Positions 165 through 48,003 of a stretch of 64,000 bases of DNA are shown here, piece by piece. The notes beneath the pieces are model-generated. The model did no database searches and was not told where the DNA came from. It saw only the letters and a list, made by a program, of their open reading frames with translations. A program made the translations under genes and the position numbers. Source of the DNA: Desertimonas flava (GTDB taxonomy: Bacteria > Actinomycetota > Acidimicrobiia > Acidimicrobiales > Ilumatobacteraceae); assembly GCF_003426815.1 (NCBI RefSeq), contig NZ_QKYK01000030.1:1-64000 (forward strand), given 5' to 3'. Each line of letters starts with the position of its first letter. Positions within the stretch are counted from its first letter, which is position 1.

Positions 165-289
165 ACGTCGGTACCGGTGCCAGCGAGCGAGCGCCAGCGA
201 GTGAGCGGCCACCCGCGGCCTGCGTGGGCACTAAGCCTCGGCGACCCGCCTGTGGGGAACGCAATTGAAGGTTCGGGAATCTCGGTCAC
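146..289 (-). repeat. Family A repeat element flanked by 18-bp direct repeat, forming a minus-strand mini-ORF
   Basis: Positions 186-262 match the intergenic family A element found at 1194, 11360, 16581 and (inverted) 20555; shared blocks include GCGGCCTGCGTGG and GGGAACGCA. The element is bracketed by an 18-bp direct repeat, GTTCGGGAATCTCAGTCA at 146-163 and the same with one change at 271-288. On the minus strand this means the first six codons of the neighbouring gene (TEIPE after the start) are present twice. A GTG at 289-287 opens a 42-codon reading frame that ends in TGA at 163-161, overlapping the ATG of the partial gene. Whether the duplication arose by insertion or by slippage is not shown. 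Confidence 0.7.
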
Positions 290-1197: not shown

Positions 1198-1328
1198 CGA
1201 TGAACGGGTTCAGCGAGCGTCCCGAAGTCCGCGCGGCCAAGGCCGGCGGAGCGCTAGCGGAGCCGGCCGTCCACGCGGCCTGCGTGGCCATTGAGCTTCA
1301 GCGAATCGCTTGTAGGGAACGCAGCTGA
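1194..1328 (+). repeat. MIRU-like linker mini-ORF, family A (44 codons)
   Basis: This gap between the first membrane protein and the Fe-S protein is an intergenic repeat. It is open in one frame from an ATG overlapping the previous stop (ATGA at 1194) to a TGA overlapping the next ATG (TGATG at 1326-1330). The predicted peptide contains FSERPEVRA and VHAACVA, shared with the mini-ORF at 16581-16721. Internal palindromes such as GGAGCGCTAGCGGAGC could fold in the mRNA. Judged as a repeat whose open frame preserves translational coupling rather than as a functional protein. Confidence 0.75.
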
Positions 1329-4541: not shown

Positions 4542-5599
4542 TCGCCATTGCTCCGACGACCGTCGCTTGGATTCTCGCGGTGGTGGTCGTCCTCGGCTGG
4601 ATCGTGTACGCCGCGCTCAATCAGGGTGCGGCCCGGCGCGAACTCGGCTCCGAGATCGAGCTGGCGGCCAACCGCAAGCCCTACTACTCCGACGAGGAGC
4701 TCGAAGGCAAGCGCCTCGAGCTCGTGCAGTTCATCGGCGTGCTCCTGCTCGCCGTCATCGTCGTCGGCCTGCCGCTCTACTGGGTGCTCGAACCCGATCG
4801 TCAGGCCGGCGCCGTCGCCCAGCAGAACGCGACGATGGTCGGCTGGGGCGCTCGACTCTTCGAGACCACCGAGAACGGCGGCTTCAACTGCGCCGGCTGC
4901 CATGGCACGATGCAGGCCACAGGAGGCGTCGCCCAAGGCACGGTCACCGATCCCCTCACCGGCGAGGTCTCGTCGGTCGACTTCATCGCCCCCGCCCTCA
5001 ACACCGTCTTCTACCGCTTCGACGAGGAAGAGGTCACCTACATCCTCACCTACGGCCGGCCCGGCACGCCGATGTCGGCCTGGGGTCTCGACGGTGGCGG
5101 GCCGCTCAACGCCCAGCAGCTCGAGACGCTGGTGATGTACATGCAATCGATCCAGATCCCCCGCGAGAACTGCAGCGCCGAGGAGGAGGGCGACCCGCTC
5201 TGCCCGACCGGACACCTTCCGGCCGACATCCAGCAGGACATCCAGAACGCCGCCGAGGCGGCGGTCGAGGATGGTCGGTACGAGACTCTCGGCGAGGCGC
5301 TGTTCAATCTCGAGCTGGCCGGCGGCGCGTTCAGCTGCGCCCGCTGCCACACCGAGGGTTGGAACTACGGCGATCCGCAGACACCCGGGGCCGGGCGTCT
5401 CGGCTGGAACCTCACCGGTGGTTCCACCAACGAGCACTTCCCGCTGGCCGAGGACATGGAACAGTTCATCGCCGACGGCACCACGCAGGGCGCCGGCTAC
5501 GGCAACGGCGGGCAGGGCACGGGCCGCATGCCGGCCTTCGGCTCGATGCTCACCGACGAGCAGATCCAAGCCATCGTCGAGTACGTGAGGGGCCTGTGA
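4538..5599 (+). CDS. Membrane-anchored diheme cytochrome c
   Basis: 353 residues from the GTG at 4538, chosen over the GTG at 4532 because GGGACGG lies 7 bases ahead and the codon overlaps the linker stop. There are two membrane segments (about residues 9-28 and 62-85) and then two haem c sites: CAGCH (C118, C121, H122) and CARCH (C267, C270, H271). Likely sixth ligands are the methionines in GTPMSAW (M179) and GRMPAFG (M331). It is the electron acceptor from the Rieske protein and corresponds in role to the diheme QcrC of actinobacterial bc1 complexes, though here it is not fused to subunit IV. Confidence 0.9.
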   Translation: MIAIAPTTVAWILAVVVVLGWIVYAALNQGAARRELGSEIELAANRKPYYSDEELEGKRLELVQFIGVLLLAVIVVGLPLYWVLEPDRQAGAVAQQNATMVGWGARLFETTENGGFNCAGCHGTMQATGGVAQGTVTDPLTGEVSSVDFIAPALNTVFYRFDEEEVTYILTYGRPGTPMSAWGLDGGGPLNAQQLETLVMYMQSIQIPRENCSAEEEGDPLCPTGHLPADIQQDIQNAAEAAVEDGRYETLGEALFNLELAGGAFSCARCHTEGWNYGDPQTPGAGRLGWNLTGGSTNEHFPLAEDMEQFIADGTTQGAGYGNGGQGTGRMPAFGSMLTDEQIQAIVEYVRGL

Positions 5600-9466: not shown

Positions 9467-10740
9467 GGCCGGTGCGAGCGGTCGTCCTGGCGGCCGTCGT
9501 CGCCGGTACGGTCGCCACCGGGGGAGCAGCCGTCATGGCCGCACCCGCGCCTCCCGGCACGGGCTGCATCGATCCGACCACGGCTCCCGCCACCGCCGAG
9601 CCGGTCAGCACGCTGCCCGCCGTGCCCACCACACAGGCCGCCGGTGCCGTGGTGTTCACCCCGCCCGAGGGTGACTTCAGCGTGACGTTCCCCGGCCAGC
9701 CCGAGCCCCAGACGGTGCCGGGCACCGGTGCCGAGACGTCGACGTGGGGCGTCATCGACGGCACGGCCGGTTACCTGGTGTCGCGCACCCTGGTGGGGGC
9801 CGGCCAGTCGATCGACCTGCAGGGTGGGTGCGAAGGTGCCGTCGCCGGGATGGGTGGAACGCTGATCTCGAGCGTCGCGATCACCGTCGACGGCCGCCCG
9901 GGCATCGAGTTCGTCGCCTCGGTCCAAGGAGGCACCGCCGTCCAGCGCATCATCGATGCCGGCACGGCGATGTACCAGCTCGTCGCGACCGACGCCGGCA
10001 CGCTCACTGCGGCGGATCCGATCGTCGTGGCCTTCTTCGACTCGTTCCACCTGACCGCGGCGATCGACCCTGCGGCGACCACCCTGCCTGCCGTCCCCAC
10101 GGTGGCCGTGCCGACGATCCCCGTGCCCACCGTCGCGGTCCCGACGGTGGCGGTGCCGACGGTTGCCGTGCCCACCGTCGCCGCCCCCACGGTGGCGGTG
10201 CCGACGATCGCCGTCCCGACGATCGCTGTGCCCACCGTGGCCGTCCCGACGGTCGCCGGGTCGACGACGGCGCCGGTCCCCGCCGGCTGGACGCTCTACA
10301 CGTCACCCACCGACGGCTACTCGGTGGCCTTCCCCACCGAGCCGACGACGTCCTCCCAGCCGATGCCCACGGGCGACGGTGGCTCGCTGCCCCTCAGCAC
10401 CACGCGGGCCAGTGGGGGCGATCGCGAGTTCGCCGTCAACTACTTCGCCCTGCCCGCGGGCGGCACGTTCGATGCCGAGGCCGGCCGCGACGGCTCGCTG
10501 GGCGACTTCTCGGCGACGCTGGTCAGCTCGGTGCCGATCGAACTGGCAGGACGCACCGGGCTCGAGTTCGTCGGCTCGTTCATCCAGGACGGCCAGCCGG
10601 CCACCGTGGTGTCCCGCATCTACACGGACGGCAGCAACGTCCACCAGCTCCTCGCCCTGTCGTTCGGGACCGTCGACGCGACCGATCCCGAGATCGCCGG
10701 GTTCTTCGGGACGTTCACCTTCACCGGAGCACCATCATGA
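9463..10740 (+). CDS. Secreted two-domain protein embedded in the nuo operon
   Basis: 425 residues with a signal peptide (Arg at 2 and 5, hydrophobic core ~7-26, cleavage near AMA/APA) and no later membrane helix. Two similar ~130-residue domains follow (about 62-200 and 272-425). Both contain a GxFSVxFP/DGYSVAFP start, a V.SSV.I...GR.GIEFV core and an ending of D..I.AFF.SF. A linker of eleven VPTVA-type pentapeptides (DNA 10093-10257) separates them. The gene overlaps nuoD by ATGA at 9463 and nuoE by ATGA at 10737, so it must be translated with complex I. No known family recognised. Being outside the membrane, it cannot be a standard NADH-arm subunit. Confidence 0.85.
   Translation: MRPVRAVVLAAVVAGTVATGGAAVMAAPAPPGTGCIDPTTAPATAEPVSTLPAVPTTQAAGAVVFTPPEGDFSVTFPGQPEPQTVPGTGAETSTWGVIDGTAGYLVSRTLVGAGQSIDLQGGCEGAVAGMGGTLISSVAITVDGRPGIEFVASVQGGTAVQRIIDAGTAMYQLVATDAGTLTAADPIVVAFFDSFHLTAAIDPAATTLPAVPTVAVPTIPVPTVAVPTVAVPTVAVPTVAAPTVAVPTIAVPTIAVPTVAVPTVAGSTTAPVPAGWTLYTSPTDGYSVAFPTEPTTSSQPMPTGDGGSLPLSTTRASGGDREFAVNYFALPAGGTFDAEAGRDGSLGDFSATLVSSVPIELAGRTGLEFVGSFIQDGQPATVVSRIYTDGSNVHQLLALSFGTVDATDPEIAGFFGTFTFTGAPS
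10093..10257 (+). repeat. Eleven 15-bp in-frame repeats encoding VPTVA pentapeptides
   Basis: Eleven consecutive 15-base units encode VPTVA with variants VPTIA, VPTIP and APTVA. Third-codon positions differ between units, so the array is old enough to have drifted. The Pro/Thr composition suggests an extended, rigid linker between the two domains of the secreted protein, a common design for cell-surface proteins. Confidence 0.9.
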
Positions 10741-11360
10741 GCCGTTTGACCGTCGAGAACACGGTGCTGGCGCGAGAGATCATCGCCCGGTACCCGCGGC
10801 CGAAGTCCGCCCTCATCCCGCTGCTGCACCTCGCCCAGGAACAGGACGGCTACGTCACCAACGAGGCGATGGCCCATCTCGCCGAGCTCGTCGGCGTCAC
10901 GCCGGCCGAGGTGTACGGCACGGCCACGTTCTACGAGATGTTCAAGTTCGAGCCCACGGGCAAGTACCTGATCAACATCTGCGGCACGATGTCGTGCGCC
11001 CTCCTCGGCGCCGAGGAGCTGATGCACCGGGCCGAGCACCGTCTCGGCATCAAGGCCGGCGGCACCACCCCTGACGGCACGTTCTCGCTGCATCACGCCG
11101 AGTGCCAGGCGGCGTGCACGGAGGCCCCGTGCCTACAGGTGAACTACCGCTATCGCTTCCGGGTCACGCCCGACCAGCTCGAGGCGCTCATCGACGATCT
11201 CGAGGCCGGCAGTCTCGACGGCGAGATCCCCCCGCACGGCACGCTCGCCCAGGTGCGCCAGCGCATCCCGGCCGACCGCGGTGTCGGCGCCGTCGACCCC
11301 GACGACGTCGATGGCCCGCCGCCCTGGATGCCCGCCCCCGAACCGACAGGAGGAGCGTGA
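10737..11360 (+). CDS. nuoE: NADH-quinone oxidoreductase subunit E (complex 1)
   Basis: 207 residues. The 2Fe-2S cluster N1a ligands are C82 and C87 (CGTMSC) and C123 and C127 (CQAAC). The helical N-terminal domain (ALIPLLHLAQEQDGYV) is typical of NuoE/NQO2. A Pro/Asp-rich ~50-residue tail follows the thioredoxin-like domain. It belongs to the NADH-oxidising module with NuoF and NuoG. This module is absent from the second operon. Confidence 0.96.
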   Translation: MSRLTVENTVLAREIIARYPRPKSALIPLLHLAQEQDGYVTNEAMAHLAELVGVTPAEVYGTATFYEMFKFEPTGKYLINICGTMSCALLGAEELMHRAEHRLGIKAGGTTPDGTFSLHHAECQAACTEAPCLQVNYRYRFRVTPDQLEALIDDLEAGSLDGEIPPHGTLAQVRQRIPADRGVGAVDPDDVDGPPPWMPAPEPTGGA

Positions 11361-11446
11361 TGTCGCTTCAGCGAGCGTCTCGGGGTTCGAGCGGCCGTTC
11401 ACGCGGCCTGCGTGGCCGGGGAACGCAGCAGGGAGGTAACTCGTGA
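11360..11446 (+). repeat. MIRU-like linker mini-ORF, family A (28 codons)
   Basis: A shortened family A copy (TTCAGCGAGCG, then GCGGCCTGCGTGGCC and GGGAACGCA) fills the nuoE-nuoF gap. It is open from ATG 11360, overlapping the nuoE stop (TGATG), to TGA 11444-11446, overlapping the nuoF GTG (GTGA). The frame differs from that of the copies at 1194 and 16581, yet both junctions are kept. CGTGA occurs at both ends. The end of the element carries GGGAGG, the nuoF ribosome binding site. Confidence 0.72.
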
Positions 11447-15373: not shown

Positions 15374-16584
15374 GTTCCTTCCTCGGGTTCGATCCGCTGC
15401 TCGTCGGCGGGCTGAAGTGGACGCCGATCGTCCTCGTGCTCGTCAAGGTGGTCGTCGTCTTCGCCGTCGGCCTCGTCGGCACGATGTTCATGGTGTGGTT
15501 CGAGCGCAAGGTGATCGCTCGCCTGCAGAACCGCCTCGGCCCGAACAAGGCCGGTCCGTTCGGCTTGCTGCAGACGCTCGCCGACGGCATGAAGCTGATC
15601 TTCAAGGAGGACTTCCTCCCCGATCGGGCCGACCGCTTCGTCTATCGCCTCGCCCCGTTTCTCGCCTTCGTGCCGGCGTTCCTCGTCTGGTCGGTCATCC
15701 CCCTCGGCGGTGACTTCAGCGGCGGCAAGGACGGCACCGTCGAGCTGTTCGGACACGTGACGCGGCTCCAGCTCGCCGACCCGCCCGTCGGCATCCTGCT
15801 CGTGCTCGCGCTGTCGTCGGTCGCCGTGTACGGCATCATGCTCGCCGGCTGGGCGAGCGGTTCGAAGTACCCGCTGCTCGGCTCGGTGCGCGCCTCGGCG
15901 CAGATGGTCAGCTACGAGGCGGCGCTGGGTCTCAGCGTCGCCGCCGTGCTGCTCACCGCGGGCACGCTCACGACCAGCGGCATCGTCGACGCCCAGAACC
16001 GCTTCGTCGATTGGAGCATCGTCGCCACGGCGTTCGTGCCGTTCGTGATCTTCGTCATCGCCGCCACGGCCGAGCTCAACCGCCCGCCGTTCGACCTCGT
16101 CGAGGCCGAGCAGGAGCTCGTCGGTGGCTTCAACACCGAGTACTCGGCGTTCAGCTTCGCCCTCTTCTTCCTCGCCGAGTTCATGAACACGATCACGATG
16201 AGCGGCATCATCGTCACGCTGTTCCTCGGCGGTCCGCAGGGCCTCTTCGACATCCCGATCATACCCGGCGCCATCGAGGGCACGATCTGGTTCCTCGCCA
16301 AGCTGTTCGTCTTCCTCTACGTCTTCGTCTGGTTCCGGGCCACGCTGCCCCGCCTGCGCTACGACCAGCTGATGGACCTCGGCTGGAAGCTGCTGATCCC
16401 GGCGTCGCTCGGCTGGTTCCTCCTGCTCGCTGGCCTGCGTGTCGTCCGAGACGAGGACTGGGACTTCTGGCAGACCCTGCTGGCAGGTGGCGCCGGAGTC
16501 GTGGTCCTCGCCGTGTGCGGCGCTTTGATGCTGCTGGCCGTCAACGTGAGCCGCCGCAACCGCGAACAGGAGGATCTGGCATGA
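15370..16584 (+). CDS. nuoH: NADH-quinone oxidoreductase subunit H (complex 1)
   Basis: 404 residues with about eight to nine membrane helices. Signature segments are [20 protein letters not shown], the acidic loop [19 protein letters not shown] and [10 protein letters not shown]. NuoH forms the membrane end of the quinone channel and starts proton transfer into the membrane arm. The GTG start overlaps the preceding linker stop; its own stop overlaps the next linker's ATG. Confidence 0.97.
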
Positions 16585-16721
16585 GCCACGAACGTCCGGA
16601 TTTCAGCGAGCGCAGCGAGCGTCCCGAAGTTCGAGCGGTGAAGGCATGCGGAGCGCTAGCGGAGCATGCCGTTCACGCGGCCTGCGTGGCCGGGGAACGC
16701 ACCAGTGGAGAGGTCGTCTGA
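16581..16721 (+). repeat. MIRU-like linker mini-ORF, family A (46 codons)
   Basis: A full family A copy between nuoH and nuoI. It opens with ATGA overlapping the nuoH stop (16581) and ends in TGATG overlapping the nuoI start (16719-16723). It shares FSER...ERPEVRA, GALAE and VHAACVA with the peptide of the copy at 1194. A GCGAGCGCAGCGAGC palindrome and the GGAGCGCTAGCGGAGC stem lie inside. Confidence 0.75.
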
Positions 16722-18521: not shown

Positions 18522-20555
18522 ATGTTCGACGCAATCTTTCTGATCCCCGCGTTCCCGCTGTTCGGGTTCCTCGTCAACGTCGCCTTCGGACGCCGGCTCG
18601 GCGAGCCCAAGTCGGGGTTGTTCGCCACGGCGATGCTCGGGCTTTCGTTCGTGGTCACGGCGATCGCCTGGATCGACATGGTCACGACGGAGGCCGGGCA
18701 CGGCGCGGGCGGCCGCACCCACATCGTGCGGCTGTTCGAGTGGATGCCCGTCGGCGACCTGAAGATCGACATGGCCCTGATGGCCGACCAGCTGAGCATC
18801 ACGATGTGCCTGTTCGTCACGGGCATCGGCACGCTGATCCACCTCTACGCGGTCGGCTACATGCACGGCGACCCGAAGTTCTCGAAGTTCTTCGTCTACC
18901 TGAACCTCTTCGCCTTCTCGATGCTGATGCTCGTGCTCGGCGAGAACCTGCTCGTGACGTTCCTCGGCTGGGAAGGCGTGGGCACGTGCTCGTACCTGCT
19001 CATCTCCTTCTGGCACACCAGGGAGTCGGCGGCCACGGCGGGCAAGAAGGCCTTCGTCACCAACCGCGTGGGTGACTGGGGCTTCATGGTGGCGATGTTC
19101 CTCGCCTTCGGCGCCGTCGGCACGCTCAGCTACACGGGGCTCAACGCGGCGGCCGAACAGGGCGGGCTCGCCCAGTCGACGGCCACGGCGATCGGCGCGA
19201 TGCTCTTCGTCGGCGCCGTCGGCAAGAGCGCCCAGCTGCCCCTGTACTTCTGGCTCCCCGACGCGATGGAAGGCCCGACGCCGGTGTCGGCGCTCATCCA
19301 CGCCGCGACGATGGTCACCGCCGGCGTGTTCTTGATGACCCGCATGAACCCGGTGCTCAGCGCCGGGGCCGACTGGGTGCCCACGCTCATCGCATGGATC
19401 GGCGTCGGTACGGCGCTGTTCGCGGCCACCGTCGCCGTCGCCCAGAACGACATCAAGAAGGTGCTCGCCTACTCCACCGTCAGCCAGCTCGGCTACATGT
19501 TCCTCGCCGTCGGCTCGGGCGCCTACGTGGCGGCGATCTTCCACATGGTCACCCACGCCTTCTTCAAGGCCCTGCTGTTCCTCGGCTCGGGGTCGGTCAT
19601 CCACGGCATGCACGACGAGCAGGACATGCGCAAGATGGGCCAGCTCCGCAAGTGGATGCCCATCACCGCGGCCACGTTCCTCATCGGTTGGCTGGCCATC
19701 GCCGGTGTGCCGCCGTTCGCCGGCTTCTGGTCGAAGGACGAGATCCTCCTGTTCGCCTTCGACAAGAGCCCGGTGCTGTACGTGCTCGGCCTCGTGACGG
19801 CGCTGCTCACCGCCTATTACATGACCCGCCAGATCATCATGGTGTTCTTCGGTGAGGCCAAGTGGCAGGACAAGGCCGCCGAGCACGGTGCCCACGGCGA
19901 GCTGATCACCGCCGACCACAACGACCTCGCCGAGCAGCCAGCCGATCACACAGCGCAGCCGGACGCGAGCGAAGCGAGCGATCAACACGGCCACGCCGCA
20001 ACACCGCACGAGTCGCCGTGGATCATGCTCTTCCCGCTGGTGGTGCTGGCCGGCCTGTCGATCGTCGGTGGCGTCATCCAGCTGCCCGGCGTGTCGTGGC
20101 TCCCCGACGGGATCGTGCACAAGCTCGCCGACTGGCTCCATCCGCTCGTCGAGGGCGGTGAGCGGGTCATCGACGCCGACCTCGATCACAACAAGTCGTG
20201 GCTGATGCTCGTGGCCATCGCCGTCGCCCTGGCCGGCATCATCGCCGCCGTCGCCGTGTACCAGCGCAAGCGGGTGAAGGCGATCGAGCCCGAGATCCTC
20301 GCCAATGGCTGGTACTACGACAAGTCGATCAGCGACTTCATGGGCGGCCCCGGGCGCAAGGCGTTCGAGGGCGTCGCGTGGGTCGACCGCAACGTCGTCG
20401 ACGGGGCCGTGAAGGGCACCGCCAAGGAGATCGGTCTGGTGGCCGGGCTCGTGCGCAAGGTGCAGAGCGGCTACGTGCGCGCCTACGCCGGCATCCTCGG
20501 CCTCGGTGTCGCCGCCCTGTTCGTGTGGTTCATCCTCGTCCGAGGAATTCTGTGA
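18522..20555 (+). CDS. nuoL: NADH-quinone oxidoreductase subunit L (complex 1)
   Basis: 677 residues, the largest antiporter-like proton-pumping subunit. Landmarks are FLGWEGVGTCSYLLI (about residue 147), PDAMEGPTPVSALIHAATMV and DIKKVLAYSTVSQLGYM. A His/Asp-rich loop (about residues 453-500) interrupts the late helices and includes a short in-frame palindrome (19965-19979) of the type found in the intergenic repeats. The C-terminal part carries the long lateral helix and the final anchor. TGATG overlap with the next linker. Confidence 0.97.
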   Translation: MFDAIFLIPAFPLFGFLVNVAFGRRLGEPKSGLFATAMLGLSFVVTAIAWIDMVTTEAGHGAGGRTHIVRLFEWMPVGDLKIDMALMADQLSITMCLFVTGIGTLIHLYAVGYMHGDPKFSKFFVYLNLFAFSMLMLVLGENLLVTFLGWEGVGTCSYLLISFWHTRESAATAGKKAFVTNRVGDWGFMVAMFLAFGAVGTLSYTGLNAAAEQGGLAQSTATAIGAMLFVGAVGKSAQLPLYFWLPDAMEGPTPVSALIHAATMVTAGVFLMTRMNPVLSAGADWVPTLIAWIGVGTALFAATVAVAQNDIKKVLAYSTVSQLGYMFLAVGSGAYVAAIFHMVTHAFFKALLFLGSGSVIHGMHDEQDMRKMGQLRKWMPITAATFLIGWLAIAGVPPFAGFWSKDEILLFAFDKSPVLYVLGLVTALLTAYYMTRQIIMVFFGEAKWQDKAAEHGAHGELITADHNDLAEQPADHTAQPDASEASDQHGHAATPHESPWIMLFPLVVLAGLSIVGGVIQLPGVSWLPDGIVHKLADWLHPLVEGGERVIDADLDHNKSWLMLVAIAVALAGIIAAVAVYQRKRVKAIEPEILANGWYYDKSISDFMGGPGRKAFEGVAWVDRNVVDGAVKGTAKEIGLVAGLVRKVQSGYVRAYAGILGLGVAALFVWFILVRGIL

Positions 20556-20728
20556 TGCTGCGTTCCCTACAGGCGATTCGCCGAGGCTCAGTGGCCACGC
20601 AGGCCGCCGCGCCGGCTCCCCGACAAGCCGGCTCGGCTGAAGCCTCGGCAGCTAGCGCTCCGGTCGCCTACCCGCTCGAACTTCGGGACGCTCGCTGGCG
20701 CTTGCTGAACGCCAACGGGAGCTTGTGA
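20555..20728 (+). repeat. MIRU-like linker mini-ORF, family A in inverted orientation (57 codons)
   Basis: A family A element inserted in the opposite direction to the other plus-strand copies. The complement reads TTCAGCAAGCGCCAGCGAGC through to GTAGGGAACGCAGC. It is still open, in a third frame, from ATG 20555 (TGATG over the nuoL stop) to TGA 20726-20728 (TGATG over the nuoM start). TGTGATGC is present at both ends (20551-20558 and 20724-20731), as expected for an 8-bp target duplication. Confidence 0.78.
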
Positions 20729-22344
20729 TGCACGCCTCGACGATGAACTTCCCGATCCTCACGGCGATCGTGCTGCTCCCCGTGTTCGGTGCCGTCGCCA
20801 CCGTGCTGGTGTCGAAGCGCCGGCCCGAACTGGTCAAGCTCGTGGCGCTGGTCTCGGCCGTGGCCACCGGAGCGCTGACCCTGTGGCTCACCGCCTCGTT
20901 CGAGACGGGCGAAGCCGGCTTCCAGTTCGTGTCGAAGCACGAGTGGATCGATCGCTGGGGCATCTCGTGGCATCTCGGGGTGGACGGCATCTCGTTGCTG
21001 CTCGTGCTGCTCACCGGCGTGCTCTTCCCGCTCGCCATCGTGGCCGTCGACGCTCACCACGACGAGAAGGCCTACCTCGGCTGGCTCCTGCTGCTCGAGG
21101 CCGGCTGCCTCGGGTCGTTCCTCAGCCTCGACCTCTTCGTGTTCTTCATCTTCTTCGAGATCGTCCTCGTCCCGATGTACTTCCTCATCGGCGGTTGGGG
21201 TTACGGCGACCGCATCTACGCGGCGACGAAGTTCTTCCTGTTCACGATGTTCGGCTCGGCGTTCATGCTCGTGGGCATCATCGCCACCGTGGTGCTCGCC
21301 CGCGACAGCGTCGGCGAGACGACGTTCGACCTCGTGCGCATCGCCAACGAGGGCGACTTCGCCACATCGACCGCACGCTGGCTGTTCTTCGCCTTCGCCA
21401 TCGCCTTCGCCGTCAAGGTGCCGATCTTCCCGTTGCACACGTGGCTACCCGACGCCCACACCCAGGCCCCGACGGCCGGCTCGGTCATCCTCGCCGGCGT
21501 CATGCTGAAGCTCGGCACCTACGGCCTGCTGCGGTTCGGTCTCTACCTCTTTCCGGAAGCGGCGGACTGGGCCCGGCCGCTGTTCCTCACGCTCGCCGTC
21601 ATCGGCATCCTCTACGGCGCCGTCGTGGCGACGATGCAGAAGGACCTCAAACGCCTCGTCGCCTACTCGTCGGTGGCTCACCTCGGCTTCATCGTGCTGG
21701 GCACGTTCGCCATGACCTCGGAGGCGATCACCGGCAGCGTGCTGCAGATGATCAACCACGGCGTGTCGACCGGCGCGCTGTTCCTCCTCGTCGGTTGGAT
21801 CTACGAGCGCCGCCACACCCGCGAGATCGCCGAGCTCAAGGGTCTGCAGCAGGTCGCCCCGATCTTCGCCGCCGCCTTCACGGTCGTCATGCTGTCGTCG
21901 ATCGGTGTGCCCGGGCTCAACGGATTCGTCGGCGAGTACCTGGTGCTCATCGGCTCGTTCGTGTCGGCCCGTTGGTGGACGGTGGTCGCCGCCGCCGGTG
22001 TCATCCTCGCCGCCCTCTATCTGCTGTGGGCCTACCAGCGGGTGTTCCACGGCGAGCCCGACAAGGACGAGGACGGCAAGCCCAAGCCGTTCGCCGAGTT
22101 GAACTTGCGTGAAGCCCTGGTGATCTCGGTGTTCATCGGCATCATCGTCTTCACAGGCGTGTACCCCAAGCCCTTGATCGATCGGGTCGAGCCCAGCGTC
22201 GACGCCCTCCTGTCGCACCTCGAAGAGCGCGGCGTGGACATCGCCGAACCCACCGTGTTCGTCCCCGCCGAGGAGGACCACGCCACCGAGGAGGAGCACG
22301 CCACCGACTCGACGGACACCGTGCCCGCGGAGGCTGACCACTGA
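20728..22344 (+). CDS. nuoM: NADH-quinone oxidoreductase subunit M (complex 1)
   Basis: 538 residues, a 14-helix antiporter-like pump. Landmarks are WHLGVDGISLLLVLLTG, FEIVLVPMYFLIGGWG with its key glutamate, and HTWLPDAHTQAPTAGSVILA. The last ~30 residues form an acidic, His-containing tail (EEDHATEEEHATD) similar in wording to the repeats of NuoL in the second complex. It starts at ATG 20728; a GTG one codon earlier is also possible. TGATG overlap with nuoN. Confidence 0.97.
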   Translation: MHASTMNFPILTAIVLLPVFGAVATVLVSKRRPELVKLVALVSAVATGALTLWLTASFETGEAGFQFVSKHEWIDRWGISWHLGVDGISLLLVLLTGVLFPLAIVAVDAHHDEKAYLGWLLLLEAGCLGSFLSLDLFVFFIFFEIVLVPMYFLIGGWGYGDRIYAATKFFLFTMFGSAFMLVGIIATVVLARDSVGETTFDLVRIANEGDFATSTARWLFFAFAIAFAVKVPIFPLHTWLPDAHTQAPTAGSVILAGVMLKLGTYGLLRFGLYLFPEAADWARPLFLTLAVIGILYGAVVATMQKDLKRLVAYSSVAHLGFIVLGTFAMTSEAITGSVLQMINHGVSTGALFLLVGWIYERRHTREIAELKGLQQVAPIFAAAFTVVMLSSIGVPGLNGFVGEYLVLIGSFVSARWWTVVAAAGVILAALYLLWAYQRVFHGEPDKDEDGKPKPFAELNLREALVISVFIGIIVFTGVYPKPLIDRVEPSVDALLSHLEERGVDIAEPTVFVPAEEDHATEEEHATDSTDTVPAEADH

Positions 22345-23899: not shown

Positions 23900-25012
23900 T
23901 CAGCCTTCGTAGATGGGGTCACCGCACCCGTACTGGTCGCAATAACCGGGATCGGACTCGGGCTCGTAGACGGGGTCACCGCACCCGTACTGGTCGCAAT
24001 AGCCGGGATCGTCGTCCCAGTACAGGTTGTCGCAGTCGTACACCTGGCAGTAGTTGGGATCGTCGAAGACCCCGTCACCGCATTCGTAGATCTGGCAGTA
24101 GTCGGCCTGGCCCTCGTACTCGGGCCAGTCGTCGGGTCCGGGCGGGCACTCGATCTCCGAGTCGCATTCGTCGTTGCCCTGTGGCGGTGCTGCCGGTGCT
24201 CCGTTCGACGCGCTGATCGAGTACTCGGCGTTGCCGATCTGTGGCGTCACGGCGATCCGATAGTCGCCGGTGAGGGCGACCGTCATGCTCCACTCGGTGC
24301 GCGGGCCAGGAGCGGTCATCAGCACACCGTCGGGTCCGTACACGTCGAACGTGGTCGGGGCGGCACCGGCGGACGGCGTGACCGTGACGCTGAGCGGTCG
24401 CCCGGCCGCCGCCGCGACCAGCCACGAGTCGCTGCTGGCGCGCAGCACGGCGCCGCGGGCCGTTCCCCGACCGTTGCGGAGCGGGAGCCGCTGGACGAGG
24501 CCGAGCGGGTCCATCGACGGAGCATCGATCCACACCTTGAGCTGGTAGTAGGCGGGGTTGCCGAGCGAGGTGACCTCCACGCTGTAGTCGCCGTCGGCGG
24601 GAAGCACACCGGACCAGAACGTGGTCGGCTGGTCAGCCGAGGCCGACACGTTGGTGAGCAACGTACGGTCGGGGGCGAACACCGAGAACACGTGGTTGTT
24701 GTCCGCCGAGTCGATCGTGATGGCGAAGGACTGGCCAGCTCCCGCGGCCAGCACCCATCGGTCCGTGACGCCCGGCGTGATGTTGCTCTCCCGCCACGCG
24801 TTGTTCGTGCCCGGCGTGAACTCGATGCGCCGGTCGACGACCGTCTGCTCGGGAGCGGCGCCGTGCTGGGCGGCATCGGCGGGTCGTGCGGCGGCGGCGT
24901 CGGTGGAGTGGAGGGCGATGCCGGACAGCGCTGCAGCGACGACGATGCCCGTGAGCCACCAGGGGCGGCGACGACGCGGCACGGATGAACGGTGGGCGCT
25001 CGATGTGGTCAT
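23900..25012 (-). CDS. Secreted protein with C-terminal Cys/Asp/Tyr repeat
   Basis: 370 residues. An Arg-rich start and a hydrophobic segment (about 19-38) form a signal peptide. Two beta-rich domains of ~100 residues follow (about 62-165 and 172-275), each with a DRWVLAAGAGQSF/DSWLVAAAAGRPL opening and a GDY[SR][VI].V ending, reminiscent of bacterial pre-peptidase C-terminal domains. The last ~65 residues are four repeats with a YCxxYxC core: YCQIYECGD, YCQVYDCDN and two copies of YCDQYGCGD. The last two repeat units are almost identical at DNA level, pointing to recent duplication. Exported, cell-surface role; function unknown. Confidence 0.8.
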   Translation of the reverse strand: MTTSSAHRSSVPRRRRPWWLTGIVVAAALSGIALHSTDAAAARPADAAQHGAAPEQTVVDRRIEFTPGTNNAWRESNITPGVTDRWVLAAGAGQSFAITIDSADNNHVFSVFAPDRTLLTNVSASADQPTTFWSGVLPADGDYSVEVTSLGNPAYYQLKVWIDAPSMDPLGLVQRLPLRNGRGTARGAVLRASSDSWLVAAAAGRPLSVTVTPSAGAAPTTFDVYGPDGVLMTAPGPRTEWSMTVALTGDYRIAVTPQIGNAEYSISASNGAPAAPPQGNDECDSEIECPPGPDDWPEYEGQADYCQIYECGDGVFDDPNYCQVYDCDNLYWDDDPGYCDQYGCGDPVYEPESDPGYCDQYGCGDPIYEG

Positions 25013-30600: not shown

Positions 30601-30631
30601 GCCCGAGATAGTGCCTGGCACTATCTCGGGC
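30601..30631. terminator. Second palindromic hairpin, 15-bp perfect arms
   Basis: GCCCGAGATAGTGCC, a single T, and the exact complement. It sits 1 base after the previous hairpin and 4 bases before the end of the converging secreted-protein gene, so one hairpin may serve each transcript. The core GTGCC-T-GGCAC is shared with palindromes at 36064, 49553 and 59935. Confidence 0.65.
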
Positions 30632-43931: not shown

Positions 43932-46349
43932 GTGCTCGCAACCGCTTGGTTCCTCGACAACGCCTGGTTGATCCCGCTGATCCCGGGGGTCGCCTTCTTC
44001 GTCATCATCCTCCTCGGCAAGCGCCTGCCGATGAAGGGCGCCGAGGTCGGCCTGGCCTCGATGGCCGCGTCGCTCGTGCTCGCCGTCGGTACCGCCGTGC
44101 AGTGGATCCAGCGCACCAACGACGCCGGCGAGGGATTCGTCGAGCCGGTCGTGCGCAAGTGGACGTGGTGGCAGAACGCGGGCATCGAGCTCTCGATCGG
44201 CCAGCACATCGACGGCCTGTCGGTGATGCTGCTGTTCCTCGTCACGTTCATCTCGCTGCTCGTGCAGATCTTCTCGCTCGAGTACGTGCGCGGCGACCGG
44301 CGCTACACCCACTTCTTCGCCGCCCTGACGCTCTTCTCGGCCGGCATGCTCGTCATGGTCCTCGCCGAGAACACCGTCCAGCTGATCCTCGGCTGGGAGA
44401 TCATGGGCCTCTGCTCGTTCATGCTGATCGGCCACTGGTGGGAGGACGAGGCCAACAGCCGGGCGGCCCTCAAGGCCTTCTTCACGGTGCGCGTCGGCGA
44501 CGTCGGCCTGCTCGTGGGCGTGACGATGCTGTACTTCGGCTCCAACGACTGGGCCGTCGAGCACGGCTACGGCTCGGGCTTCAGCATCCGCGGCATCTCG
44601 GCGTGGGCGCTGTCGGGCGACGGCAGCCATCAGCTACTGCTGTGGACCGCGGTCGCCCTGTTCATCGCGTGCATCGGCAAGAGCGGCCAGTTCCCGCTCC
44701 ACACCTGGTTGCCCGACGCCATGGCCGGTCCCACGCCGGTGTCGTCGCTGCTCCACTCGTCGACGATGGTCGTCGCCGGTGTGTTCCTGGTGGCCCGGCT
44801 CTACCCGGTGTTCTGGGAGGGCTTCTCGATCCCTGACTCGAGCGTCAACCTCATCGTGGTCATCGCCGGCATCACGATCCTGATCTCGGGCCTGCTGGCC
44901 TTCGTGCAGGACGACATCAAGAAGGTGCTGGCGTACTCGACGGTGGGTCAGCTCGGCTACATGATGCTCGGCCTAGGCGCCGGCGCGTGGATGCCCGCGG
45001 TGTTCCACATCTTCACGCACGCCTTCTTCAAGTGCTGCCTGTTCCTCTGCGCCGGCTCGGTGAGCCACTCCGGCTCGCATCACAGCTTCGACATGAAGAA
45101 GGACATGGGCGGCCTACGCAAGGCGATGCCGATCACGTTCGGGGCGTGGATCGTCTCGTCGCTCGCCCTCGTCGGCATGTTCCCGTTCGCCGGGTTCTTC
45201 TCCAAGGACGAGATCATCGACAACGTCGGCCACAACGGCTACGCGGTGTTCAAGTGGATCGCCCTCGTCGGCGCCGCGCTCACGGCCATGTACACGGTCC
45301 GCGCGACGTACCTCACGTTCCTCGGCCAGCCGCGCGGTGCGGCCGCCGGCGAGCACCATGACGTCCACGCTGTGCACACGGGCGACGCCCACGACGTCGA
45401 CAGCGAACCGGCCCTCGAGAGCGTCCACGATGCCCACGACAGCCACGGGCCCAGGGAGTCGCCGAAGCTCATCCTCGTTCCGATCGCAATCTTGGCCGTG
45501 CTCGCCCTCGGGTCGGGCTGGACCAATCCGGCGATGGCCGGCGAGAGCTGGCACAACTTCGCCCAGTACGTGGAGCCTCACGTGGCCCACGGCGAGGAAC
45601 ACGCCGAGGAGGCGGCAGGGGAGGACCACGGCGAGGAGGCCGCGGCCACCGAGGAGCACGCCACCGAGGAGGCTGCGGCGACCGAGGAGCACGCCACCGA
45701 GGAGGCTGCGGCGACCGAGGAGCACGCCACCGAGGAGGCTGCGGCGACCGAGGAGCACGCCACCGAGGAGGCTGCGGCGACCGAGGAGCACGCCACCGGT
45801 GACGCGGCGGCCACCGAGGAGCACGACGCCGAGTTCCCGACGGTCAGCCATGCCGAGTTCAAGTGGGTGCCCAACGCCCTGACGTCGCTCGCCATCGTCG
45901 CCGCGGCCATCGTCGTGTCGTTCGCTGTCTGCGCGGCCCTCTACGGCCGTAAGGACCGCCGCCTGGTCGGGCTCACCGAGCGGGTCGCACCCCTGCGGTG
46001 GGGCTACACCTTCCTGGCGAACAAGTACTACCTCGACGCTCTCTACGAGAACGTCATCGTCAAGGCCGTCGCCCACCCCATCGCCAAGGCGGCCAACTGG
46101 GTCAACCAGAACGTCATCGACGGCATCGTCAACGGCACCGGCCGGGCCGGCAAGGAGGTCGGCGAGATGGTCTACCGCAGCGTCGACCAGACCCTGGTCG
46201 ACGGCGCCGTCAACGGCTCCGGTTGGCTGGCCGAGGAAACCGGCGAAGGTCTCCGGCCCCTACAGTCGGGTCGGGTCAGTCAGTACGGCGGCTTGCTGTT
46301 CGGCGCCGCCGCCGTCGGAGCCATCGTGCTCGTGATCATCAACGTATGA
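43932..46349 (+). CDS. nuoL: NADH-quinone oxidoreductase-like subunit L with long repetitive insertion (complex 2)
   Basis: 805 residues, about 130 more than the complex 1 copy. Core landmarks are LGWEIMGLCSFMLIG, HTWLPDAMAGPTPVSSLLHSSTMV and DIKKVLAYSTVGQLGYM. Two insertions account for the size: a His/Asp-rich loop (about 471-506) and a Glu/Ala/His/Thr stretch (about 553-633) built on an EEHATEEAAAT unit. The latter lies between late membrane helices, before the conserved C-terminal lateral-helix region (YLDALYENV...). GTG start, 4 bases after nuoK. Confidence 0.95.
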   Translation: MLATAWFLDNAWLIPLIPGVAFFVIILLGKRLPMKGAEVGLASMAASLVLAVGTAVQWIQRTNDAGEGFVEPVVRKWTWWQNAGIELSIGQHIDGLSVMLLFLVTFISLLVQIFSLEYVRGDRRYTHFFAALTLFSAGMLVMVLAENTVQLILGWEIMGLCSFMLIGHWWEDEANSRAALKAFFTVRVGDVGLLVGVTMLYFGSNDWAVEHGYGSGFSIRGISAWALSGDGSHQLLLWTAVALFIACIGKSGQFPLHTWLPDAMAGPTPVSSLLHSSTMVVAGVFLVARLYPVFWEGFSIPDSSVNLIVVIAGITILISGLLAFVQDDIKKVLAYSTVGQLGYMMLGLGAGAWMPAVFHIFTHAFFKCCLFLCAGSVSHSGSHHSFDMKKDMGGLRKAMPITFGAWIVSSLALVGMFPFAGFFSKDEIIDNVGHNGYAVFKWIALVGAALTAMYTVRATYLTFLGQPRGAAAGEHHDVHAVHTGDAHDVDSEPALESVHDAHDSHGPRESPKLILVPIAILAVLALGSGWTNPAMAGESWHNFAQYVEPHVAHGEEHAEEAAGEDHGEEAAATEEHATEEAAATEEHATEEAAATEEHATEEAAATEEHATEEAAATEEHATGDAAATEEHDAEFPTVSHAEFKWVPNALTSLAIVAAAIVVSFAVCAALYGRKDRRLVGLTERVAPLRWGYTFLANKYYLDALYENVIVKAVAHPIAKAANWVNQNVIDGIVNGTGRAGKEVGEMVYRSVDQTLVDGAVNGSGWLAEETGEGLRPLQSGRVSQYGGLLFGAAAVGAIVLVIINV
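45651..45815 (+). repeat. 33-bp tandem repeat inside nuoL (complex 2)
   Basis: Four 33-base units (45651-45683, 45684-45716, 45717-45749, 45750-45782) are identical at every base, and a fifth (45783-45815) is diverged. Each encodes EEHATEEAAAT. Identity at third-codon positions shows very recent expansion, so the copy number probably varies between strains. The frame is preserved because 33 is a multiple of three. Confidence 0.95.
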
Positions 46350-46362
46350 GGACGCACCGCTC

Positions 46363-48003
46363 ATGAACCCCATCACCGACAACACGGCGCTGCTCTCCAT
46401 CGCCACGTTCGCCCCACTGGTGGGCGTCCTCTGCCTCATCTTCTGGCCGAGGGACGACGAGCGCGGCATCAAGATGATCGGCATCCTCACGGCGGCCCTG
46501 ACGTTCGGGCTCGGGCTGGCCGTGCTGTTCACGTTCGATCACGGCAACGCCGGCACGTTGCAGTTCTTCGCCGACGCCGAATGGATCAAGTTCCTCCACT
46601 CGAACTACACGATCGGCCTCGACGGCATCAGCCTGCCGCTGTTCGTGCTCTCGAGCTTCATCACGTTCGTCGTGATGATCTACACGTGGGAGAACGTGCC
46701 CGAGGCGGGCAACCCCAAGGCGTTCATCGCCCTGCTGCTGATCCTCCAGGTCGGCATGGCCGGCACGTTCATCGCCCAGGACCTGATCCTCTTCTTCGTC
46801 TTCTTCGAGATCGTCCTGCTGCCGATGTACTTCCTCATCGGTGTGTGGGGTGGCGAGCGCCGCCAGTACGCCTCCCTGAAGTTCTTCCTCTACACGATGT
46901 TCGGGTCGGCCCTGATGCTCGTCGCCTTCGTGGCGATCTTCATCCGCACCGGCTCGGAGAGCTTCTCGTTCCAGTACCTCGCCGAGCACGGCGGCGAGAT
47001 CGGCCGCAACGTGCAGATCTGGATCTTCGCCGGGATGTTCGTCGGCTTCGCCGTGAAGGTGCCGATGTTCCCGTTCCACACGTGGCTGCCCGACGCCCAC
47101 ACCCAGGCGCCGACGCAGGGCTCGGTCATCCTGGCCGCCATCCTGCTGAAGCTCGGCACCTACGGCTTCGTGCGCATCGCCATCCCGATGCTGCCCGAGG
47201 GAGCCAAGGCGTTCGCGCCGGTGCTCGGCATCCTCGCCGTGATCGGCATCATCTACGGCGCCTTCTGCTGTCTGGCCCAGACCGACATGAAGCGACTCAT
47301 CGCCTTCTCGTCGGTCGCCCACATGGGCTTCACGATGCTCGGCATCTCCACGCTCACCACATTCGGCATCAACGCCGCGATGTTCGGCATGGTCGCCCAC
47401 GGTCTCATCACCGGCATGCTCTTCTTCCTCTGCGGCGCCGTGAAGCACCGGTACCACACCTACGAGATCGCCAAGCTCAGGGGCATCCTCAAGGCCCGGC
47501 CACAGCTCGGCTGGATCGCCGGCTTCTGCGCCATGGCGAGCCTCGGCCTGCCCGGCCTGGCCGGCTTCTGGGGTGAGTTCCCGGCGATCCTGTCGACGTA
47601 CAACCCACTGGCCGAAGCCGATCTGTCCAAGGCCTTGTTCCGGTCGCTGATGATCGTCGCTGCCCTCGGCACGGTGTTCGCCGCCGCCTACCTGCTGTGG
47701 CTCTACCAGCGGGCCTACTTCGGCGAGCCCGACGGTGACGGTCACGCCGATGCGCACGGCACGCCGCACGTCACCCACGCCGTCGGCGCCGCCGTCAACC
47801 CTGCCGTCGACGCCGACCCCGCCGCGCACGGCCACGACGACGAGGAGATCGGCGACGTCACGGTCGTCGAGTGGATCGCCTGGCTGCCGGTGCTCGCCCT
47901 CATCGTGGCGTTCGGCGTCTACCCGCAGGCGCTGTTCAAGCTCTTCGATCCCGCCAGCGAGAACATCGTCGGCCACCTCAAGGACTACTTCCTGAGCCGC
48001 TGA
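46363..48003 (+). CDS. nuoM: NADH-quinone oxidoreductase-like subunit M (complex 2)
   Basis: 546 residues. Landmarks are IGLDGISLPLFVLSSF, FEIVLLPMYFLIGVWGGER with the key glutamate, and FPFHTWLPDAHTQAPTQGSV. A His/Asp-rich loop (about residues 457-497; DGDGHADAHGTPH) precedes the last two helices. ATG 13 bases after nuoL; the stop overlaps nuoN (TGATG). Confidence 0.96.
   Translation: MNPITDNTALLSIATFAPLVGVLCLIFWPRDDERGIKMIGILTAALTFGLGLAVLFTFDHGNAGTLQFFADAEWIKFLHSNYTIGLDGISLPLFVLSSFITFVVMIYTWENVPEAGNPKAFIALLLILQVGMAGTFIAQDLILFFVFFEIVLLPMYFLIGVWGGERRQYASLKFFLYTMFGSALMLVAFVAIFIRTGSESFSFQYLAEHGGEIGRNVQIWIFAGMFVGFAVKVPMFPFHTWLPDAHTQAPTQGSVILAAILLKLGTYGFVRIAIPMLPEGAKAFAPVLGILAVIGIIYGAFCCLAQTDMKRLIAFSSVAHMGFTMLGISTLTTFGINAAMFGMVAHGLITGMLFFLCGAVKHRYHTYEIAKLRGILKARPQLGWIAGFCAMASLGLPGLAGFWGEFPAILSTYNPLAEADLSKALFRSLMIVAALGTVFAAAYLLWLYQRAYFGEPDGDGHADAHGTPHVTHAVGAAVNPAVDADPAAHGHDDEEIGDVTVVEWIAWLPVLALIVAFGVYPQALFKLFDPASENIVGHLKDYFLSR

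Follow-up and report, generated by a model that had tools for sequence, protein, structure and literature searches.

We analyzed a 64,000-nt stretch of the Desertimonas flava genome (contig NZ_QKYK01000030.1, positions 1 to 64,000; hereafter the window), focusing on a copy of a dispersed repeat, family A, that lies between the genes nuoL and nuoM. Comparison of sequences indicates that this insert, flanked on each side by the octamer TGTGATGC, is very probably a short, non-autonomous mobile repeat similar to the mycobacterial interspersed repetitive units (MIRUs), inserted in the TGATG overlap of nuoL and nuoM. The upstream gene, nuoL (18522..20555, plus strand; Pfam Proton_antipo_M, _N and _C), ends with the TGA at 20553-20555, and nuoM (20728..22344, plus strand; Pfam Proton_antipo_M) starts with the ATG at 20728. 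Both octamers carry TGATG: the left target-site duplication copy (20551..20558, plus strand) holds the nuoL stop and, at 20555, the ATG of a frame that bridges the two genes, and the right copy (20724..20731, plus strand) holds the TGA of this frame (20726-20728) together with the nuoM start. These are the sole plus-strand occurrences of TGTGATGC in the window, and a third occurrence lies on the minus strand at 45077. The element body (20559..20723, minus strand) is inverted relative to the genes, with its conserved end GCGTTCCC starting from 20560 and its other end near GGGAGCT at 20723, an outer boundary that was set by eye. The insert and one duplication copy together span 173 bp, and a copy on contig C6 matches the element at 93% identity over 160 bp.

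An earlier reading made from the letters alone (the sequence-only reading) had described an exact, TGATG-containing octamer at both ends of the element and an orientation opposite to that of the other operon copies in the window (1205-1327, 11392-11431 and 16598-16706), and both descriptions proved accurate. Its proposal that the octamers are a target-site duplication within a stop/start overlap is supported by the empty overlap found in relatives and by longer exact duplications at other copies. To this we add the bridging frame and a genome-wide family of similar habit, in which reversed orientation is not unusual: at nine of the 33 tight same-strand junctions of our junction set (both gaps from -25 to 60 nt), the copy is oriented against the genes.

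On its own, the octamer is weak evidence: coupling can explain the TGATG at both ends, which leaves three of the eight letters free. The sequence-only reading had suggested looking for an empty site in related genomes. We gathered 80 loci by NuoM similarity, both genes being shown in 79 of them by one script and in 78 by another. At 76 of these 79 relatives the insert is lacking and the nuoM start is found in frame at an offset of 0 (48 relatives), -3 (25) or +1 (3) from the nuoL stop. The empty sites read TGTGATG in 21 relatives and TGTGATGC in 8, and joining the two flanks of the insert yields cgaggaattcTGTGATGCacgcctcg, which resembles the empty sites of the relatives. The closest NuoM matches were to metagenome-assembled genomes of Acidimicrobiia and Ilumatobacteraceae. 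The three exceptions were locus L073, with more than 2 kb between the genes, L108, where the genes adjoin and the start was not found, and L091, which holds another repeat. A similar picture was obtained for the junction of nuoH and nuoI, which also carries a family A copy in the window: a script found no insert there in 52 of 53 relatives, and inspection by eye found none in the 53rd (L035). The right flank of this copy retains CTGATGGGC, common to many relatives, and its left flank differs.

Locus L091 is the nuoL-nuoM region of Ilumatobacter sp. MO_167.B34, in which positions 4815-4977 hold a repeat other than family A that has a 52-codon bridging frame; we count the presence of a different repeat with such a frame at this junction in support of the insertion reading. 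This second repeat family, unlike family A, is present in L091 and L169. Over 124 nt, the L091 repeat matches a stretch of genome G106 at 77% identity, and no exact flank duplication was seen in L091. By eye, the G106 stretch lies at a junction matching that of the window's copy at 1205, upstream of a family A-type element. The window also contains a second nuoL/nuoM-like gene set (43932-48003; NuoM-like protein 44% identical), with no family A match at its junction among the matches listed.

Duplications were then sought at other copies by comparing exact flank repeats with permuted pairs for 88 copies or arrays. Exact repeats of at least 8 bp were found in 12 of the 88 (4.3 expected), of at least 9 bp in 8 (1.1 expected), of at least 10 bp in 6 (0.45 expected) and of at least 12 bp in 4 (0.03 expected). 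The clearest duplications measure 29 bp (L232), 17 bp (L226), 14 bp (L225), 13 bp (window, 146-158/271-283) and 8 bp (nuoL-nuoM), and 11-bp exact duplications were found at L227 and at L005, where the match extends to about 18 bp with two mismatches by eye. Exact lengths are therefore 8, 11, 13, 14, 17 and 29 bp, and some of the shorter duplications may have decayed from longer ones. The 13-bp repeats, GTTCGGGAATCTC, flank a sister copy at 189..263 (plus strand) and, by eye, extend into a minus-strand gene at its start codon. Three further duplications, recognized by eye, were missed by the automated test: 10 bp at L003, 9 bp at L008 and a decayed 14 bp at L219. By eye, ATGA or GTGA lies within the exact duplication in five of ten cases (window 20551, L008, L225, L226 and L232), and inside it or at its edge at L003, L005, L219, L227 and window 146 once mismatches or a gap are allowed. 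Around the start and stop tetramers, 3 of 17 pairs showed a contiguous match of at least four letters; among permuted pairs the rate was 2.4%. These results indicate genuine duplications, without a fixed length, in a minority of copies, presumably the younger ones. Nine-base flank matches at L122 and L142 were rejected as probably due to chance, lying 46-47 nt from the boundary.

The frame bridging nuoL and nuoM (20555..20728, plus strand) is 57 codons long; its ATG overlaps the nuoL stop and its TGA overlaps the nuoM start, each within TGATG. All four operon copies in the window carry such a frame. The sister copy at 16598..16706 (plus strand) lies between nuoH (NADHdh) and the next gene, which encodes a 4Fe-4S protein taken as nuoI, and its 46-codon frame (16581-16721) forms ATGA over the nuoH stop and TGATG over the next start. 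The copy at 1205..1327 (plus strand), before the 4Fe-4S gene at 1328, has a 44-codon frame (1194-1328), and a short copy at 11392..11431 (plus strand), between two genes upstream of nuoH, has a 28-codon frame (11360-11446).

We counted as bridging any frame of at least 60 nt whose start falls between -4 and +12 of the upstream stop and whose end falls between -12 and +4 of a downstream start; as a null, the element interior was shuffled in two-base steps. Bridging frames were found at 22 of the 33 tight junctions relative to 11.6 expected, and none of 20,000 draws reached 22. The counts were 18 of 24 for copies oriented with the genes (9.0 expected) and 4 of 9 for those oriented against them (2.6 expected). 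Where the stop of the upstream gene overlaps a start (22 junctions), no stop interrupted the bridging frame in 17, as compared to 14 of 44 for the other two frames (Fisher p = 0.0006, computed as if the related copies were independent). All three phases are represented among the open bridging frames of sense copies and two among those of reversed copies; because they occur in several phases and on both strands, the bridge rather than the peptide seems to matter.

These observations suggest a mechanism. Insertion duplicated the target, which is TGTGATGC at this junction and reaches 29 exact bp at another copy. Each end of the insert therefore carries a stop/start overlap, and the insert is open in the frame that links one TGATG to the other. 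On finishing nuoL, a ribosome could start again on the 57-codon frame and, after it, on nuoM, which would thereby be kept coupled despite 173 extra bases. From these sequence features we infer that the bridging frame is translated and that coupling is what selection kept.

A survey of insertion sites covered 62 copies or arrays, drawn from the window and from the gathered loci; 26 later-gathered loci lie outside it, and genes were called by a codon-usage script that was checked on the window. Both neighboring genes run in the sense of the element for 32 copies and against it for 14, and the remainder lie between divergent (6) or convergent (6) genes or have one neighbor unknown (4). Four of the 62 copies fall inside a predicted gene. 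Among the 55 insertions outside genes with a gene on each side, 30 occur where the element-free gap is at most 40 nt, and such gaps make up 7% of the window's intergenic sites; a gene end lies within 20 nt in 49 of the 55. The upstream gene ends in DTGA at 20 of the 33 tight same-strand junctions, and 17 of the 33 also offer, by a permissive criterion, a downstream start with A after it, both counts standing without a background rate. MIRU insertion at DTGA sites was reportedly described by Supply in 1997.

Family A comprises roughly 80-100 copies in this genome, dispersed and in several tandem arrays. The nuoL-nuoM copy gave at least 71 BLAST matches (the best 40 of 136 first-look candidates were scored) and the nuoH-nuoI copy at least 68 (the best 40 of 165 candidates were scored); a covariance model gave 78 matches. 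A 21-base core of the right end had 103 matches with at most two mismatches, against none for its reversed control, and a pattern for the left end had 62 matches against 3 in the control. Of 57 distinct left ends, 54 are accompanied by a right end no more than 200 nt away, and the remaining three by a diverged one, recognized by eye. A left end accompanies 46 of the 93 distinct right cores, and 23 lack any left-like motif, figures biased by the fact that the loci were partly gathered by the right core. The family has thus one constant end, the 3' end GGGGAACGC, and one variable end. The end core was detected in 13 of 221 genomes of the family Ilumatobacteraceae (6 of 27 genera) and in 4 of 396 sampled genomes of the phylum, three of which belong to Ilumatobacteraceae and one of which has a single one-mismatch match. 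With strict filters, covariance model R1 matched this genome alone among 296 sampled genomes of the class. No match was found to Rfam at the gathering threshold across the whole window, or to plasmid records with a 205-base query. A literature search on interspersed repeats in Ilumatobacter, covering few subscription papers, found no paper, and one with wider terms and the MIRU, coupling and duplication literature, of equally limited subscription coverage, had no paper on family A among the matches listed.

Family A has an internal stem, GCGTCCC/GGGAACGC. We aligned 26 of the 36 copies of suitable length, omitting 10 as near-duplicates or members of other subtypes. A three-helix model, derived from these same mutually related copies, pairs in 96.1% of cells, and sliding the partners reduces pairing to 35-44%. 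In the central stem, two-sided changes were counted in 33 cells relative to 12.2 in shuffles, none of 500 shuffles being as high; a count by pairs was less striking, 5 of them having a two-sided change relative to 3.7 in shuffles (41 of 500 as high), and the RNAalifold covariation term was small (-0.89 kcal/mol). One hairpin of family A thus appears to covary across the aligned copies. When four single pieces were folded as RNA, their z-scores were weak (-0.6 to -1.4) and not clearly better than shuffles, so support for the structure comes from the comparison of copies. In alignment A2, the letters of a seven-pair stem (columns 43-49/64-70) vary among this genome's copies and pairing is kept in 92.8% of cells, for which RNA function or correction of a DNA hairpin are candidate causes.

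MIRUs are familiar chiefly as markers for typing tuberculosis bacteria. As described in PMC2734929, they are dispersed repeats of 40-100 bp with tandem copy-number variation, and the rnc-fpg junction measures 1 to 54 bases without MIRU repeats in the species listed there. PMC12548453 presents them as apparently mobile and located at start codons, with an internal open reading frame (ORF) coupled to the gene there. Family A shares with MIRUs the short length and the dispersed and tandem arrangement, an internal ORF that overlaps or abuts the stop and start of its neighbors (22 of 33 tight junctions, 11.6 expected), and the location at DTGA stop/start sites. MIRUs belong to another lineage, and family A is likened to them by behavior alone, not by sequence. 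Set beside these shared traits are the features of family A: exact duplications that are 8-29 bp long, bridging frames in either orientation and an apparently covarying hairpin. We therefore regard family A as probably a new variant, MIRU-like in behavior, in a distant actinobacterial lineage. ERIC, RPE, YPAL, Correia and similar repeats resembling miniature inverted-repeat transposable elements (MITEs) are described as having frames fused in frame to genes; in contrast, the frame of family A is a separate cistron between two genes, and no terminal inverted repeats were seen by eye. To our knowledge, the mechanism of MIRU mobilization is not settled. With its stop/start duplications, empty sites and frame-specific openness in a distant actinobacterial lineage, family A makes testable the idea that a mobile element can target sites of translational coupling and rebuild the coupling, and its variable duplication length constrains the enzyme that moves it.

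Several points weigh against the reading of a MIRU-like insertion that preserves coupling. No empty allele came from a close strain, the genus being a singleton in the genomes searched and the best NuoM found being 78% identical. Five of the eight duplicated letters are explicable by coupling as the stop/start TGATG, and 76 of the 88 copies have no exact flank repeat of at least 8 bp. Counted per gap, 28 of the window's 42 same-strand gaps are tight, and the site preference is less striking by this measure. Gene starts were taken from a home-made gene finder and some are misplaced, for example that of the gene at 1328. By the criterion used, 11 of the 33 tight junctions lack a bridging frame; the bridging counts also overstate independence, as the copies are related and the shuffle null is crude. 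Finally, translation of the bridging frame is itself deduced from the sequence.

Family A is probably moved by an enzyme acting in trans. Searches for RVT_1 and Y1_Tnp over 23 genomes did not identify this enzyme; DDE transposases were not searched for. If family A were an ordinary MITE, derived by deletion from an insertion sequence and mobilized in trans by a DDE transposase, this would account for short, multicopy elements that lack a long protein of their own and have flank duplications. DDE transposases give nearly fixed duplication lengths, and the exact lengths of 8, 11, 13, 14, 17 and 29 bp do not fit a transposase with a fixed stagger. In addition, one end of family A is constant and the other variable, and terminal inverted repeats were not seen at the ends by eye, no dedicated search having been made. 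We regard this origin as rather unlikely. An element resembling a bacterial short interspersed nuclear element (SINE), whose RNA copy is primed at ATGA/GTGA start/stop overlaps, would be consistent with the constant 3' end GGGGAACGC, the variable 5' end, the duplications of 8-29 bp and the one apparently covarying hairpin. Such elements need a reverse transcriptase in trans, and no RVT_1 match was found in this genome (96.6% complete); 4 of the 23 genomes searched have one. We consider the idea improbable. Were it true, insertion at coupling sites and their bridging would keep family A harmless in core operons, and the reverse transcriptase would be absent from the assembly or of an unrecognized kind.

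The remaining alternatives appear weaker still. The octamers could be coincidental if the element were an old intergenic spacer, with coupling accounting for TGATG at both ends and chance for the T and G before it and the C after it; most copies indeed lack a flank repeat of at least 8 bp. Yet TGTGATGC stands at the empty site in 8 of 79 relatives, and exact duplications of 29, 17, 14 and 13 bp occur at other copies where 0.03 of at least 12 bp are expected, which makes coincidence quite improbable. Repetitive extragenic palindromic (REP) sequences moved by REP-associated tyrosine transposases (RAYTs, of the Y1 type) resemble family A as short palindrome-containing repeats near gene ends, and this genome has two Y1_Tnp genes. 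However, one of them (L252) goes with another repeat, a GTGCCTGGCAC palindrome, which lies immediately ahead of the gene and again where it ends; the ends of family A were not found in the 3.3 kb of this locus, and REP/RAYT elements are not known to duplicate their target, whereas family A has flank duplications. A REP origin is accordingly very unlikely, and the palindromes suggest a REP/RAYT-like system separate from family A. Palindromic repeats centered on GTGCCWGGCAC lie at 30611, 36071, 49564 and 59947 in the window and at L252. The least credible alternative is that the element is kept for a conserved, functional small protein. By eye, one open frame spans the 99-nt subtype in the sense direction, but in the 98-nt subtype a TAG interrupts it. 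Moreover, bridging frames in several phases would yield differing peptides, and the 57-aa frame has no Pfam match.

Other repeats were observed in the window. Tandem repeats of 15 nt (10060-10295) and 33 nt (45578-45841) lie inside long ORFs of the two nuo-like regions, and four imperfect 48-nt repeats (23907-24110) lie inside a predicted minus-strand gene.

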